Made by a program: the position numbers and the translations under genes
Notes under the pieces: generated by a model
Databases searched by the model: none
Seen by the model: only the letters and a program-made list of their open reading frames with translations
Told to the model about the DNA's origin: nothing
Part shown: positions 2,214-6,961 of the stretch, piece after piece
Numbering within the stretch: position 1 is the first letter of the stretch
How the letters are laid out: every line of letters begins with the position of its first letter
DNA from: an uncultured Oscillospiraceae bacterium
GTDB lineage: Bacteria > Bacillota_A > Clostridia > Oscillospirales > Oscillospiraceae
Length of the DNA stretch: 9,598 bases
Assembly: GCA_900762245.1 (NCBI GenBank)
Contig: CAAFFR010000043.1
Coordinates: forward strand, 1 to 9,598
Reading direction: 5' to 3'

Positions 2214-3806
2214 ATGTCCAATTTAGTAGAAGAAATCAGCCGACGCCGAACCTTTGCCATCATTTCCCACCCCGACGCCGGTAAAACCACTCTGACCGAA
2301 AAATTCCTGCTCTACGGCGGTGCCATTGCACAGGCCGGTGTCGTCAAGGGCAAGAAAAATTCCCGCGCCGCCACCTCCGACTGGATGGAGATCGAAAAGC
2401 AGCGTGGTATCTCCGTTACCTCTTCCGTCATGCAGTTCCAGTATGGCGGTTTCTGCATCAACATTCTGGATACCCCCGGCCACCAGGACTTCTCCGAGGA
2501 TACCTACCGTACCCTGATGGCTGCCGACTCCGCCGTCATGGTCATCGACGGTGCCAAGGGCGTGGAGCCCCAGACCCGGAAGCTCTTCAAGGTCTGCGCC
2601 ATGCGCCATATTCCCATCTTCACCTTCGTCAACAAGATGGACCGGGAAACCAAGGACCCCTTCGACCTGCTGGACGAGGTGGAGCGGGAGCTGGGCATCG
2701 AGACCTACGCCATGAACTGGCCCATCGGCTCCGGTAAAGATTTCCAGGGCGTTTACGACCGGGAAAAGGAAGAACTGATCTTCTTCACCAGCAATACCGG
2801 CAAGCGCAAGGCAGACAAGATGTCCGTTGACCTGTACGACAAGCAGGTTGCAGAGCTTCTGGACAGTGAAGCCAAGCACCAGCAGCTCATCGACGATGTG
2901 GAGCTGCTGTCCGCAGGCCGGGAGATGGATATGGAGGCTGTCCGCCGCGGTCAGCTGTCTCCTGTCTTCTTCGGCTCCGCTCTGACCAACTTCGGCATTG
3001 AGCCTTTCCTGGAGAATTTCCTGAAGCTGACACCCCCTCCCCTGGCCCGCACCTCTGACCAGGGTGAAGTGGATACCTTCAGCCCCGATTTCTCCGCCTT
3101 CGTCTTCAAGATCCAGGCCAACATGAACAAGGCCCACCGGGACCGCCTGGCTTTCATGCGCATCTGCTCCGGCAAGTTCGAGCGGGATAAGGAATACTAC
3201 CACATCCAGGGCAAGAAGAAAATGCGCCTAAGCCAGCCTCAGCAGCTGATGGCTGCCGAGCGCGAAATCGTGGAAGAAGCCTATGCCGGCGACGTTATCG
3301 GTGTTTTCGATCCCGGTATCTTCGCCATCGGTGATACCATCACCGTTCCCGGCAAGAAATTCAGCTATTCCGGCATCCCCACCTTCGCCCCCGAGCATTT
3401 CTGCCGTGTATCCGCCAAGGATTCCATGAAGCGCAAGCAGTTCGTCAAGGGCACCGAGCAGATCGCTCAGGAAGGTGCCATCCAGATCTTCAAGCTGCCC
3501 AACTCCGGTATGGAAGAAGTCATCGTAGGCGTTGTCGGTACCCTGCAGCTGGATGTGTTCCAGTACCGCATGAAGAACGAGTATGGCGTGGATCTGCGGA
3601 TGGAGATGCTGCCTTACGAAGAGATCCGCCTCATCGACGAATATCCCGGCGGCCTGTCTGATATGAACCTGGGCAGCGATGCCGAACTTCTGGAAGATTA
3701 CCGTGGCCGCAGCCTGCTGGTCTTCTCCAGCTACTGGGCCATCGATTTCACCTGCCGCCGGAACCCCGGCCTGAAGGTGTCCGAGATCGTGGTAGCCGAA
3801 GGCTAA
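2214..3806 (+). CDS. prfC: Peptide chain release factor 3 (RF3)
   Basis: A full-length 530-residue translational GTPase, close to the roughly 529 residues of E. coli RF3. RF3 uses GTP to remove RF1 or RF2 from the ribosome after the finished protein has been released. Motifs in order: G1 SHPDAGKT (18-25), switch region DWMEIEKQRGISVTSS (56-71), G3 DTPGH (86-90), G4 NKMD (140-143), G5 FFGSAL (about residue 255), then the beta-barrel domain II and the RF3-type C-terminal domain. The DWMEIEKQRGISV signature separates RF3 from EF-G and the TetM/LepA families. The start at 2214 is supported by GGAGGG at 2200-2205. It is monocistronic: candidate promoter at 2074-2102, two hairpins after the stop. 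The upstream leader may carry termination-dependent control (see the small ORF at 2142). Codon use is GC-rich and host-like, in contrast with the EcsC gene before it. Confidence 0.97.
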   Translation: MSNLVEEISRRRTFAIISHPDAGKTTLTEKFLLYGGAIAQAGVVKGKKNSRAATSDWMEIEKQRGISVTSSVMQFQYGGFCINILDTPGHQDFSEDTYRTLMAADSAVMVIDGAKGVEPQTRKLFKVCAMRHIPIFTFVNKMDRETKDPFDLLDEVERELGIETYAMNWPIGSGKDFQGVYDREKEELIFFTSNTGKRKADKMSVDLYDKQVAELLDSEAKHQQLIDDVELLSAGREMDMEAVRRGQLSPVFFGSALTNFGIEPFLENFLKLTPPPLARTSDQGEVDTFSPDFSAFVFKIQANMNKAHRDRLAFMRICSGKFERDKEYYHIQGKKKMRLSQPQQLMAAEREIVEEAYAGDVIGVFDPGIFAIGDTITVPGKKFSYSGIPTFAPEHFCRVSAKDSMKRKQFVKGTEQIAQEGAIQIFKLPNSGMEEVIVGVVGTLQLDVFQYRMKNEYGVDLRMEMLPYEEIRLIDEYPGGLSDMNLGSDAELLEDYRGRSLLVFSSYWAIDFTCRRNPGLKVSEIVVAEG

Positions 3807-3859: not shown

Positions 3860-3893
3860 AAAAAGCTGCCTGCGCAATTGCAGGCAGCTTTTT
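3860..3893. terminator. Bidirectional rho-independent terminator between prfC and the small-peptide operon
   Basis: Stem GCTGCCTGC (3865-3873) and GCAGGCAGC (3880-3888), 9 bp, loop GCAATT, extended by AAAAA on the left and TTTTT on the right. On the plus strand it ends prfC; on the minus strand the stem is followed by TTTTTT and starts 12 bases after the stop codon of the last small peptide gene (3905-3979). Confidence 0.92.
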
Positions 3894-3904
3894 CCATTTT
3901 TAAC

Positions 3905-3979
3905 TTACAGGTTGCCAATGACGTTCATCATTTCGCCGATTTCCTGCATACCCTTGATCAGATTCTTCTTCATAGACAT
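3905..3979 (-). CDS. Small peptide 4 of the cluster (24 aa), last gene
   Basis: A 24-residue peptide, no recognised family. The ATG at 3977-3979 lies nine bases after a perfect AGGAGG (3989-3994); a second ATG two codons later is too far from that site. The core KKNLIKGMQEIGEM (residues 4-17) matches its three upstream neighbours and is followed by a tail of seven residues ending in IGNL. Hydrophobic residues M3, L7, M11, I14, M18 and I21 fall on one face of a helix, with lysines at the N-terminus and glutamates in the middle, so an amphipathic helix is likely. There is no signal peptide, cysteine or double-glycine cleavage site. Codons (AAG, CTG, ATC, GGC) are host-like. The bidirectional terminator follows at once. 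Function is unknown; candidates are a leaderless bacteriocin or modulin-like peptide or a signal precursor. Confidence 0.75.
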   Translation of the reverse strand: MSMKKNLIKGMQEIGEMMNVIGNL

Positions 3980-4035
3980 ATATATTATCCTCCTATATGA
4001 GTGTTAATTGGTTGATTTTTAAATATTTTTTGCAA

Positions 4036-4107
4036 TTAACCGCCGATCTTGGCCAGCATCTCGCCGTAGTTCTGCATACCGCGAACCAGATTCTTCTTCA
4101 GGGACAT
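4036..4107 (-). CDS. Small peptide 3 of the cluster (23 aa)
   Basis: A 23-residue peptide with core KKNLVRGMQNYGEM (residues 4-17) and a six-residue tail ending in KIGG. The ATG at 4105-4107 is nine bases from AGGGAGG (4117-4123). It is the closest relative of the last peptide in the cluster (both begin M-S-x-K-K-N-L) and differs mainly in the tail and at I/Y before the conserved GEM. The frame is open further upstream: an ATG-ATG pair at 4177-4182, seven bases after AAAGGA, would give a 48-residue version with an Arg/Pro-rich N-terminal part. The strong internal ribosome binding site and the conserved core favour the short form. The ending GG could in principle be a C-terminal recognition feature, but no processing enzyme is nearby. 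Function unknown. Confidence 0.75.
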   Translation of the reverse strand: MSLKKNLVRGMQNYGEMLAKIGG

Positions 4108-4193
4108 TCTTACACACCTCCCTAAAACAAATTGTGTGGGATAGGGCCGCCGTACAGTGGGCAGACCACGTTTGGTCATCATATTTGCATCCT

Positions 4194-4271
4194 TTACTCG
4201 CCGCAGATGCAACGCATCTCGCCGATCTCCTGCATGGCACGGACCAGGTTCTTCAGCATAATGTTCTTCAT
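4194..4271 (-). CDS. Small peptide 2 of the cluster (25 aa), Cys-containing tail
   Basis: A 25-residue peptide. GGAGGT (4281-4286) lies nine bases before ATG 4269-4271; an earlier ATG at 4277-4279 is out of frame and hits a stop after three codons. The core is LKNLVRAMQEIGEM (residues 6-19), nearly identical to the two following genes, but the tail reads RCICGE and carries the only cysteines of the set, as a C-x-C pair. That tail could allow a thiolactone, disulfide or metal contact, as in AgrD-type autoinducers, although the long acidic tail of AgrD and an agrB gene are both missing. Separated by 79 bases from the gene before and 86 from the gene after, with no promoter or terminator seen in the gaps. 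Function unknown. Confidence 0.72.
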   Translation of the reverse strand: MKNIMLKNLVRAMQEIGEMRCICGE

Positions 4272-4350
4272 AATTTCATTACCTCCAAAAATTGAGTGGT
4301 GAAAAATTCCATCTATTTTTTGTCCACATTGGGACACTCTGTAATTGAAC

Positions 4351-4434
4351 TTAGAAGCGATCAGAAAGGATCAAGGTGTTGCCGTACTCCTCCATCGCAT
4401 TGATGAGGAGCTGCTTCATAGAAACCTTCTTCAT
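4351..4434 (-). CDS. Small peptide 1 of the cluster (27 aa), first gene
   Basis: A 27-residue peptide, the most divergent member. AAGGAGGT (4441-4448) is the strongest ribosome binding site of the cluster, six bases before ATG 4432-4434. The core KQLLINAMEEYGN (residues 7-19) aligns with the others with one extra residue before the Ala-Met pair (L-x-x-x-AM versus L-x-x-GM), keeping the M-[QE]-E-[IY]-G pattern. The tail is TLILSDRF, more hydrophobic then charged. It is promoter-proximal: the extended -10 at 4535-4543 gives a leader of about 94 bases containing a hairpin. It may have a different role from the other three, for example as signal, immunity-like partner or second component. Function unknown. 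Confidence 0.7.
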   Translation of the reverse strand: MKKVSMKQLLINAMEEYGNTLILSDRF

Positions 4435-4497: not shown

Positions 4498-4527
4498 TGC
4501 AAGGCGTCGTTGCCGCTCGCCTTAGCA
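4498..4527 (-). promoter_or_regulatory. Hairpin at the 5' end of the small-peptide mRNA
   Basis: CGCCTT (4518-4523) pairs with AAGGCG (4501-4506) around an 11-base loop, and the outer TGC/GCA ends (4525-4527 and 4498-4500) extend it past a single bulged base. It would begin within a few bases of the predicted transcription start near 4528. No T-run follows on the minus strand, so 5'-end mRNA stabilisation is more likely than attenuation. Confidence 0.45.
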
Positions 4528-4534
4528 TGGCGGT

Positions 4535-4543
4535 ATTATAGCA
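4535..4543 (-). promoter_or_regulatory. Extended -10 promoter of the small-peptide operon
   Basis: On the minus strand TGC-TATAAT: a perfect -10 hexamer (4535-4540) with the TGn extension (4541-4543). No good -35 hexamer is found at 16-18 bases, which is typical of promoters that need an activator. Start expected near 4528. Confidence 0.7.
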
Positions 4544-4571
4544 CCTGTTTTCCAAGGAAGAAAGTGGTTAA

Positions 4572-4600
4572 ATTGACTTTGGTTGGGTGAATATTGACTT
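4572..4600 (-). promoter_or_regulatory. Direct-repeat activator site (LytTR-like geometry)
   Basis: Two perfect copies of AAGTCAAT in minus-strand sense (4572-4579 and 4593-4600), 21 bp start to start, that is two helical turns. The nearer copy ends 31 bases upstream of the TATAAT. Paired direct repeats of about 9 bp with this spacing, ahead of a promoter lacking a -35, are the known binding arrangement of LytTR regulators such as AgrA, ComE and PlnC. The repeat sequence only loosely resembles their consensus, so the regulator class is inference. A GAACA-AAATA-TGTTC inverted repeat lies further upstream at 4616-4630. Confidence 0.5.
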
Positions 4601-4843: not shown

Positions 4844-6961
4844 TTAACACTGCGCTTCTCTTTCCTGGCAGGTAAAGCAGAGAATCTGTTTATCCTTCGC
4901 CATCTCCCGCAGAAGCTTCATTGCAGCCTGCATCCGGCCATCGTCGAAGCGTACCAGCACATCATCCAGCACCAGAGGTGCCTTTGGGGTCAATTCCTCC
5001 GCCACCGCAAGGCGCAGGGCCAGATACAGCTGGTCCATGGTGCCGTCACTGCGCCAGAGTGCATCCCGCAAGGTGTCCTCCGCCTCCGTTCCCGTCTGCA
5101 GGGAGAAATCCTCCTGCATGGTCAGGCGGCGGTAGCGGCCTCCGGTCATGGCGGACAGCAGCTTCTGAGCCCGTTTGGTGATCCGGGGCGCGTAGCGGCG
5201 CTGCAGCTCTGCTTTTGCCGCAGCCAGCGTATCCTGTGCCAGCACCAGGGCGGCATAGGTCTCTTCCAGCTTTGCGATCCGCAGCTGCACCTGCTGCAGC
5301 TGACGATTCAGTTCCTCCCGGTCACCCAGAAGCTCCATACGGCCCTGATACTGGCCCAGACGATTTTGCAGCCGCTGCTGTTCTTCGGCGCAGTCTGCCA
5401 GAAGCTGGGTGGTCTGCTGCTCACTTTGGGGCAGGTGGTCCTCCATGGAGGGCTTTTCCACCGGCTTTACCATGGCGCTTAACGTCTCATGGTGCCGTTT
5501 TGCCTGGGCCGCCTGCTGGCGGGTGCGAAGGCAGGCATTCCAGTTTTCCAGGTCTTCCTGCCAGCGCCGCATCATGTCATCCGGGTCCTGATCGGAACCC
5601 AGCGATTCCCGCTTTTTCCGCAGGACCATCATCCGCACTTCCAGATCGCTTTGGATCTCCCGGTATTCCTTCAGGGCAGTACGGTAAGCTGCCTGATCCT
5701 TTTCAAACTTGCCAATGGGTGTCACCCATTGTTTCCAGTTGGGAGTTCCGTACTTGGCAAGCAGATTTTTTCCCTGCTTTTTGATCCTTACCTTTTCCCA
5801 AATGCCCCAGACAAGGGCCAGCGCACCGCAGACTGCGGCACCGGCGGCATAGATCATTGCCTGCAGGTACCACAATCCCGCCGCAGCCAGCAGGCCCAGA
5901 ATGCCCACAAGGATCAGAATGCCGGGAGCCTTGGTCTTGGTAATTTCCGTGTAAACCTTCGCATCGGCCCGCGCCATTTCCCAGGCGGCTTCCGCTGTCA
6001 TGCCGGTAAAGGGCTCCGGCATCTGGGGAATGATGGGTTCCCGGGGTGCTTCCCGGTATTCCCGTTCCAGGCCGCTGCGCATTTCCAGGAAGGAACGCAG
6101 CTCCCGTACCTTGCTTTCCACCGCCTCCCGTGGGGGCAGCTGGGCACAGATGGCTTCCAGACGGTCCAGTTCCCGCTCCGTTTCCTCCCGGGCAGTTTTG
6201 GCCTGGGCTGTCCGGGCAATCAGCTCTTCCATCTCCCGGTAGGCCAGGGTCTGCTGGTGGTTATACAGCTGCTTCAGCCACAGCTTGATATCTTCCAGAT
6301 TCCGGCGGAGCTTTTTCGTCTGCTCTTCCAGGGTATCCAGTTCCCGCAGCTTTCCTTCCAGCTCCTCCCGGCGTTCTTCTGCCTGGGGCAGCAGTCCGGT
6401 GCGGTGATAACGGCAGCGGTTGCGCAGGGTCTTTAAACTTTCTTCCAGCCGTTCTGCCCCGCCGCTGTCATCACCGGTGGTGACCAGTGCGTTGAGGCGG
6501 CGGCGCAATGCCTCATCCTGCGTCAGAGGCAGGTCTGCATGGCGAATAAAGCCTGCCCGGCGGAACACGGTCTGCTCCACCCCCAGCAGCATCTGACCAC
6601 AGTTGGCGGCTGTCAGCTCTGTCACCGGAAGCCCCGATTCCGTTTCGTAGGCCTTAAATTCCCCCAGAGGAATCCGTCCCTGTGTCCTGCGCTCAATGGT
6701 GATATCCCGTCCATTCCAGTTCAGGTCCATCCGTCCCTCCATAGGGGCACCGGACCAGGGCTGGTAATGGGTTTTGTCTGCCAACCCTGACTTGGTGCTT
6801 TTGCTGCGGGTATCCAGACCATAGAGCATGGCTGCCAGGAAAGCGCACCAGGTACTTTTGCCCCACTCATTGGGAGCGGTGATGATATTCAGCCCCGGCT
6901 CCAGTTCCAAAGTCGCGCGCTCCAGCTTGCCGAAGGTGGCTGTCATACGGTAAATTCTCAC
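4844..6961 (-). CDS. SbcC/Rad50-like ATPase, YhaN type, with membrane hairpin
   Basis: A 705-residue ABC-type SMC-like ATPase. The N-terminal half-domain carries the Walker A APNEWGKST (29-37); the C-terminal half carries an ABC signature region WRSDGTMDQLYLALRLA (636-652) and Walker B PLVLDDV (662-668). Between them lie two charged coiled-coil stretches (about 170-300 and 425-590). At the turn, where Rad50/SbcC has a CxxC zinc hook, there are two hydrophobic segments (about 345-362 and 367-388) joined by a short loop, predicted to form a membrane hairpin. It is shorter than the roughly 960-residue B. subtilis YhaN. The ATG overlaps the end of the nuclease gene by four bases (ATGA), implying translational coupling and a shared complex. 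Probable role: ATP-driven DNA end processing or repair, perhaps at the membrane. Family assignment is firm; the exact orthologue name is less so. Confidence 0.88.
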   Translation of the reverse strand: MRIYRMTATFGKLERATLELEPGLNIITAPNEWGKSTWCAFLAAMLYGLDTRSKSTKSGLADKTHYQPWSGAPMEGRMDLNWNGRDITIERRTQGRIPLGEFKAYETESGLPVTELTAANCGQMLLGVEQTVFRRAGFIRHADLPLTQDEALRRRLNALVTTGDDSGGAERLEESLKTLRNRCRYHRTGLLPQAEERREELEGKLRELDTLEEQTKKLRRNLEDIKLWLKQLYNHQQTLAYREMEELIARTAQAKTAREETERELDRLEAICAQLPPREAVESKVRELRSFLEMRSGLEREYREAPREPIIPQMPEPFTGMTAEAAWEMARADAKVYTEITKTKAPGILILVGILGLLAAAGLWYLQAMIYAAGAAVCGALALVWGIWEKVRIKKQGKNLLAKYGTPNWKQWVTPIGKFEKDQAAYRTALKEYREIQSDLEVRMMVLRKKRESLGSDQDPDDMMRRWQEDLENWNACLRTRQQAAQAKRHHETLSAMVKPVEKPSMEDHLPQSEQQTTQLLADCAEEQQRLQNRLGQYQGRMELLGDREELNRQLQQVQLRIAKLEETYAALVLAQDTLAAAKAELQRRYAPRITKRAQKLLSAMTGGRYRRLTMQEDFSLQTGTEAEDTLRDALWRSDGTMDQLYLALRLAVAEELTPKAPLVLDDVLVRFDDGRMQAAMKLLREMAKDKQILCFTCQEREAQC

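Follow-up and report, generated by a model that had tools for sequence, protein, structure and literature searches.

We have identified an operon of unannotated micro-peptide genes in a 9,598-nucleotide stretch of DNA from an uncultured gut bacterium of the Oscillospiraceae (hereafter the window). The peptides are members of a rapidly changing family of which we found no description in Pfam, NCBIfam or the open-licence literature, and in related genomes their operons lie behind a shared operator, usually beside a divergent AraC-family gene; we are highly confident of this module and of its control by the AraC protein. Taken as a whole, the window locus is best explained, at a likelihood falling slightly short of even, as the distal operon in a regulon that is linked to an AraC protein and has no detected targets apart from micro-peptide operons. 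That the peptides are intracellular helical effectors is put forward more tentatively. The features of the window operon are listed below from 5' to 3'.

4561 to 4598, minus strand: operator GTCAATATTCACCCAACCAAAGTCAATTTAACCACTTT, two GTCAAT direct repeats 21 bp apart
4535 to 4540, minus strand: -10 box TATAAT, closely preceded by TG; the first base of the operator is 58 bases away
4498 to 4527, minus strand: possible stem-loop at the mRNA 5' end, predicted and weak, its window energy no better than that of shuffles
4351 to 4434, minus strand: peptide D, MKKVSMKQLLINAMEEYGNTLILSDRF, 27 residues; frame conserved in the syntenic locus L002, and as MRKISMKQLLVKAMEQHGNNLILSDRF in L046
4194 to 4271, minus strand: peptide C, MKNIMLKNLVRAMQEIGEMRCICGE, 25 residues; last 20 codons conserved in L002
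4120 to 4182, minus strand: conserved part of a GLST-type fifth ORF, MMTKRGLPTVRRPYPTQFVLG, starting at 4182; 10 of the 19 operons have an ORF of this type
4036 to 4107, minus strand: peptide B, MSLKKNLVRGMQNYGEMLAKIGG, 23 residues; differs from L002 in 4 codons synonymously and in 2 nonsynonymously
3905 to 3979, minus strand: peptide A, MSMKKNLIKGMQEIGEMMNVIGNL, 24 residues; conserved in L002 except for the tail, which has changed
3860 to 3893, minus strand: terminator hairpin at the operon end, with T-runs on both strands

An earlier note on this DNA had described an operon of four paralogous minus-strand micro-genes at 4434-3905. ORFs are indeed found there, in the 5' to 3' order D, C, B, A, and the paralogous operon is real, but its size was understated, the fifth ORF from 4182 having been missed along with the operator and the regulator that adjoins the operator in relatives. 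Each of the four genes has its own ribosome binding site, as described, an AAGGAGG/GGAGG-type sequence; the measured distance is 7-10 bases rather than 6-9. One promoter and one terminator were correctly recognized, with TATAAT at 4540-4535 preceded by the operator on the 5' side and the hairpin at 3860-3893 on the 3' side. The operator is the sole match in the window and had 0 matches in 200 shuffles. The operon is flanked by prfC (2214-3806, plus strand) and by an ATPase gene (4844-6961, minus strand) with AAA_27, AAA_23 and SMC_N matches, and the T-runs on both strands of the terminator hairpin suggest that it may also serve prfC. The note's failure to recognize a known family was repeated in our searches: Pfam holds none for any of the four window peptides, NCBIfam none for the three peptides tried (one from the window and two relatives of window peptides), and Rfam none matching the window. 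Elsewhere in the window, 936-1991 encodes a 351-residue protein whose sole recognized domain is a C-terminal SHOCT.

A degenerate DNA pattern of the peptide core was scanned over the GTDB genome collection and gave two loci, L001 and L002. The first (Desulfogranum) was taken for chance. The second lies in the goat-rectum MAG Oscillospiraceae bacterium RGIG3015 (genome G001) and is syntenic with the window, with the same neighbors and with six peptides versus the window's four. The two loci are almost the same in the promoter block and over the first ~70 bases of D. Conservation of the frames in a related genome had been proposed as a test of the operon, and all four are kept in L002: from the small counts that two genomes provide (19 synonymous and 16 nonsynonymous differences), pN/pS was 0.17 for D, 0.50 for C (last 20 codons only), 0.14 for B, 0.62 for A and 0 for the fifth ORF (over 21 codons, 7 differ synonymously and none nonsynonymously), with a pooled value of 0.23 and a value of 0.046 for prfC. 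Judged by these codon differences, the frames are under selection, which is loosest in A with its changed tail. As a separate observation, the DNA of the peptide D site and the ~70 bases that follow is identical in the window and L002, which exceeds coding demand alone.

The operator, searched with up to three mismatches, occurred 18 times across 136 genomes of the genus, in 16 of them, and the reversed-pattern control gave 0 in the same 136; since the pattern was derived from peptide operons, it could overlook weaker sites in other places. There is a single site in 15 genomes and there are three in G001, each of the three preceding a peptide operon. G001 contains two further peptide loci besides L002, at one of which the peptides are divergent from the AraC-family gene. 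Such a gene is divergent at 16 of the 18 sites; the other two are extra G001 operons that lack one, and one of these is the counterpart of the window operon, which likewise has no such gene beside it. The spacing from operator to TATAAT is 58 bases in all 19 operons, the window's included. Each of the 16 operator genomes has the AraC gene and, conversely, an orthologue (E<=1e-60) was found in 12 of 199 relatives, all 12 of which carry the operator. In the two orthologues scanned, the domains are AraC_binding and HTH_18, and the families matched were only AraC_binding, Cupin_2 and HTH. The ligand domain keeps cupin-like HWH, E and H residues. After clustering at 90% identity, the regulator has 732 matching proteins at E<=1e-60. 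By extension from G001, the genome of the window probably has an AraC gene of its own, and the AraC protein is likely to bind the operator repeats. AraC-type activation from paired direct repeats is familiar from araBAD, to which the direct repeats 21 bp apart just 5' of a promoter with a poor -35 are similar; the difference is that the targets here are micro-peptides. A phage or virus origin was also considered and rejected, there being no exact operator match in a viral contig collection.

Within 600 bases behind the 19 operators, SD-led ATG ORFs of 19-35 codons numbered 48 in sense and 0 in antisense, against a mean of 0.78 and a maximum of 4 in 200 shuffles, which rules out chance ORFs; the 48 include within-operon copies, and at least one, MRQSEEFTERGLSRQPIRR in L058, looks spurious. 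Their number per operator ranges from one (L042, L047, L059) to six (L044). A terminator-like hairpin follows the last micro-ORF in 15 of the 19 operons, which leaves no larger gene in those operons. The terminator search gave none for L049, L051, L053 and L054, of which L051 and L053 end near a contig end and L054 was searched from an ORF beyond a visible hairpin that was taken as the last. Peptide sequences vary greatly across species, and most align on a core, [LI]xxxMxxYG[EKN]x[LM], with a near-invariant Gly; the micro-ORFs of L042, L043 and L047 barely resemble it. Identical peptide copies occur in L050 and L051. The earlier picture of a conserved core with tails that differ in every copy holds in that the core is kept, the ends are more variable and tails differ within an operon, but certain tail types are shared by different species (SDRF by the window and L046, GQL by L052 and L058). 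A profile search with the core had also been suggested, and it was productive: a 24-row profile (E<=0.01) matched in 10 of the 136 genomes, every one operator-bearing, and found no peptide in 6 of the 16 operator genomes. An early version of the profile matched 4 genomes among 99 relatives; its match in G072, inside a 796-residue frame, was taken for chance.

The fifth ORF represents a distinct type with the motif GL[SP]TxR, found in its 10 operons by a search with the window ORF and look-alikes followed by operon reading. In all eight cases with a measurable upstream stop, the ORF starts 1-19 nt after that stop; seven of these eight have no SD-like site, and the window has only AGGA. The GLST ORFs of L048 and L059 do have an SD-like site. 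Six of eight closely followed GLST ORFs overlap the next peptide's start, twice as ATGA, and the two that do not overlap stop 2 nt (L044) and 40 nt (L048) before it. This arrangement has the anatomy of translational coupling, which probably operates here. In the window, the GLST-type frame reads on through peptide B as far as 4036. A model built from the single sequence of the window's 48-residue frame predicted a helix at residues 16-46 (mean pLDDT 78, pTM 0.42), and one 48-residue protein matched that frame among 5.8 billion predicted proteins. Across 136 genomes the GLST search gave 17 matches in 16; the six at E<0.001 were all in operator-bearing genomes, and three of the eleven at E 0.005-0.05 (G598, G014, G600) lay in peptide operons and were read as GLST ORFs. 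The other eight were taken for chance.

In evenly drawn family samples of 400 genomes, only G001 was found by peptide profile, operator and GLST profile. A conserved neighbor gene was used as an anchor and matched in 39 of 80 relatives, of which 30 loci were read. Among operator genomes, the operator was visible at six of seven anchor loci, the seventh (L100) being at a contig end. A Metallophos_2 phosphoesterase gene adjoins the AraC gene in G001 and G043, and in operator-less genomes a phosphoesterase motif lay within ~0.5 kb of the anchor at 11 of 23 loci, as if the module were absent; at the other 12 the simple phosphoesterase pattern gave no match. The best reading of these gene orders is that the AraC-peptide module may be an accessory one, subject to gain or loss. 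Fifteen neighboring proteins at three relatives' loci were scanned against Pfam and matched CHAP (below the cut-off), phosphoesterase, CDP-alcohol phosphatidyltransferase, sortase (near L023), integrase, TnpV, DUF6809, TetR, MFS sugar transporter and glycosyl hydrolase 3, with four having no family. No immunity, peptide-export or modifying family occurred among these 15 or among five window proteins, several of the small neighbors having no family and the check for RiPP enzymes being confined to nearby genes.

We propose that the AraC protein would bind the direct repeats beside the weak -35 and, on a cue, give rise to a strong transcript of the peptide operons only. Ribosomes would make from it several peptides of 21-31 residues, and termination-reinitiation would yield the GLST peptide. 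The peptides would stay in the cell and fold as short helices whose conserved YG core would modulate a protein or membrane partner, and the paralogues with their tails would provide specificity or dosage. Intracellular helical effectors are favored because no other target was detected, because no immunity, export or modifying genes were recognized nearby and because hydropathy is low; the near-invariant core Gly fits a specific partner better than mere lysis. The evidence on helicity is divided. Among the four window peptides, for which the earlier note had offered an amphipathic nature as one option, the moment test agrees for B (z 3.36) and A (z 2.42), but not for C (0.79) or D (-0.16), and the result for D counts against the effector reading. 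In a hand-picked set of 43 family peptides (the set excludes GLST peptides, four from L044 that closely resemble window peptides, near-copies from L053 and L058, a 45-residue ORF of L053, a poor ORF of L042 and doubtful ORFs), the helical moment was raised (p<0.05) in 19 and not in 24. These 24 likewise weigh against the effector reading, as do the six operator genomes with no match to the core profile and the micro-ORFs of L042, L043 and L047.

Alternatively, the products could be leaderless, membrane-active peptides, induced by the AraC protein and secreted through a general exporter, after the manner of PSMs or multi-peptide leaderless bacteriocins, as the earlier note had suggested. We regard this as rather unlikely. 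The staphylococcal PSM-alpha operon encodes several leaderless peptides in tandem under a dedicated activator, and the present operons resemble it in having a probable dedicated activator and short tandem peptides of about the same length, each with its own start site and, by reading, no evident signal peptide. The 19 raised helical moments, the strong divergence and the duplicate copies point the same way, and the difference of four versus six peptides at one locus, together with that divergence, would also suit secreted, competing peptides. However, the same 43 peptides are mostly hydrophilic (mean GRAVY -0.35, 6/43 above zero, mean charge +1.3), whereas table rows of PMC6131525 give leaderless bacteriocins GRAVY values of 0.154 to 0.690. 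They differ from PSM-alpha further in their conserved YG core, the linked AraC-family gene and the absence of a recognized exporter. Aureocin A70, a four-peptide bacteriocin by the title of a reference in PMC6131525, likewise has several short leaderless peptides per cluster, but relative to such bacteriocins the present loci have lower hydropathy and no recognized immunity or peptide-export gene among the neighbors scanned; beside the L021 operon the transporter is of the MFS sugar type. PMC6131525 also states that immunity and secretion genes within the cluster are confirmed for few leaderless bacteriocins only. As to the other suggestion of the note, a leader/core precursor, neither a modifying enzyme nor a leader protease was recognized in the 15 proteins beside three relatives' loci or the five window proteins.

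It is less probable again that the peptides, or pieces of them, induce their own synthesis as ligands of the AraC protein. The regulator and peptides co-occur, no other target was detected, and across 16 AraC proteins mean identity is 65% in the ligand domain, the more variable one, against 86% in the DNA-binding domain. Yet the ligand domain is still well conserved, while peptides of some species can hardly be aligned with each other; twelve SD-led peptides in three operons stand under one regulator in G001, and no exporter was recognized. Small molecules are the usual ligands of AraC ligand domains. The RRNPP pairs described in PMC10075063 likewise consist of an intracellular regulator adjoining a small peptide gene; they differ in that the present regulator has AraC_binding and HTH_18 and no TPR domain was found in two orthologues, and in that there are up to six SD-led peptides per operon. 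The fuller version of this idea, in which the AraC protein not only activates its own micro-peptides but also serves as their receptor, in a one-regulator, many-peptide signaling module of gut Oscillospiraceae, strikes us as improbable; a search of open-licence literature with narrow terms gave no description of an AraC protein sensing its own peptides.

Least probable, and by a wide measure doubtful, is the possibility that the micro-ORFs serve chiefly as coupled leader ORFs or as an RNA device, with peptide products of little importance: the tight spacing (8/8) and overlaps (6/8) of GLST ORFs and the predicted hairpins in the 5' leader of the window and relatives would suit it, but the terminator-like hairpins after the last micro-ORF, the retention of GL[SP]TxR while third codon positions vary, the pN/pS values (GLST and pooled) and the folding of six leaders or 5' pieces (z 0.52 to -1.87) speak against it.

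Titles and abstracts of the open-licence literature searched held no description of such an AraC-peptide module, and genes of this kind escape annotation because they are so short. Genomes and metatranscriptomes can be searched for such peptides by way of the operator, and with so narrow a regulon a single deletion could test the function. Several minor features were seen in the relatives. At the 5' stem-loop position (window 4498-4527), CTTC-AAGGG...CCCTT-GC-AAG occurs in many other operons, and a third peptide type comes last in two operons, as MKDFATNLVIMLKLNDERQTGISQNN (L046 2135-2212) and MADFASNMIIIMKMEQERQKEIDNQ (L048 1839-1913). The second extra G001 operon (L021 3-1682) is followed by a TetR gene, the MFS sugar transporter gene and a glycosyl hydrolase 3 gene; it also adjoins phage-integrase-family, TnpV and DUF6809 genes, neighbors that hint at possible transport by a mobile element.
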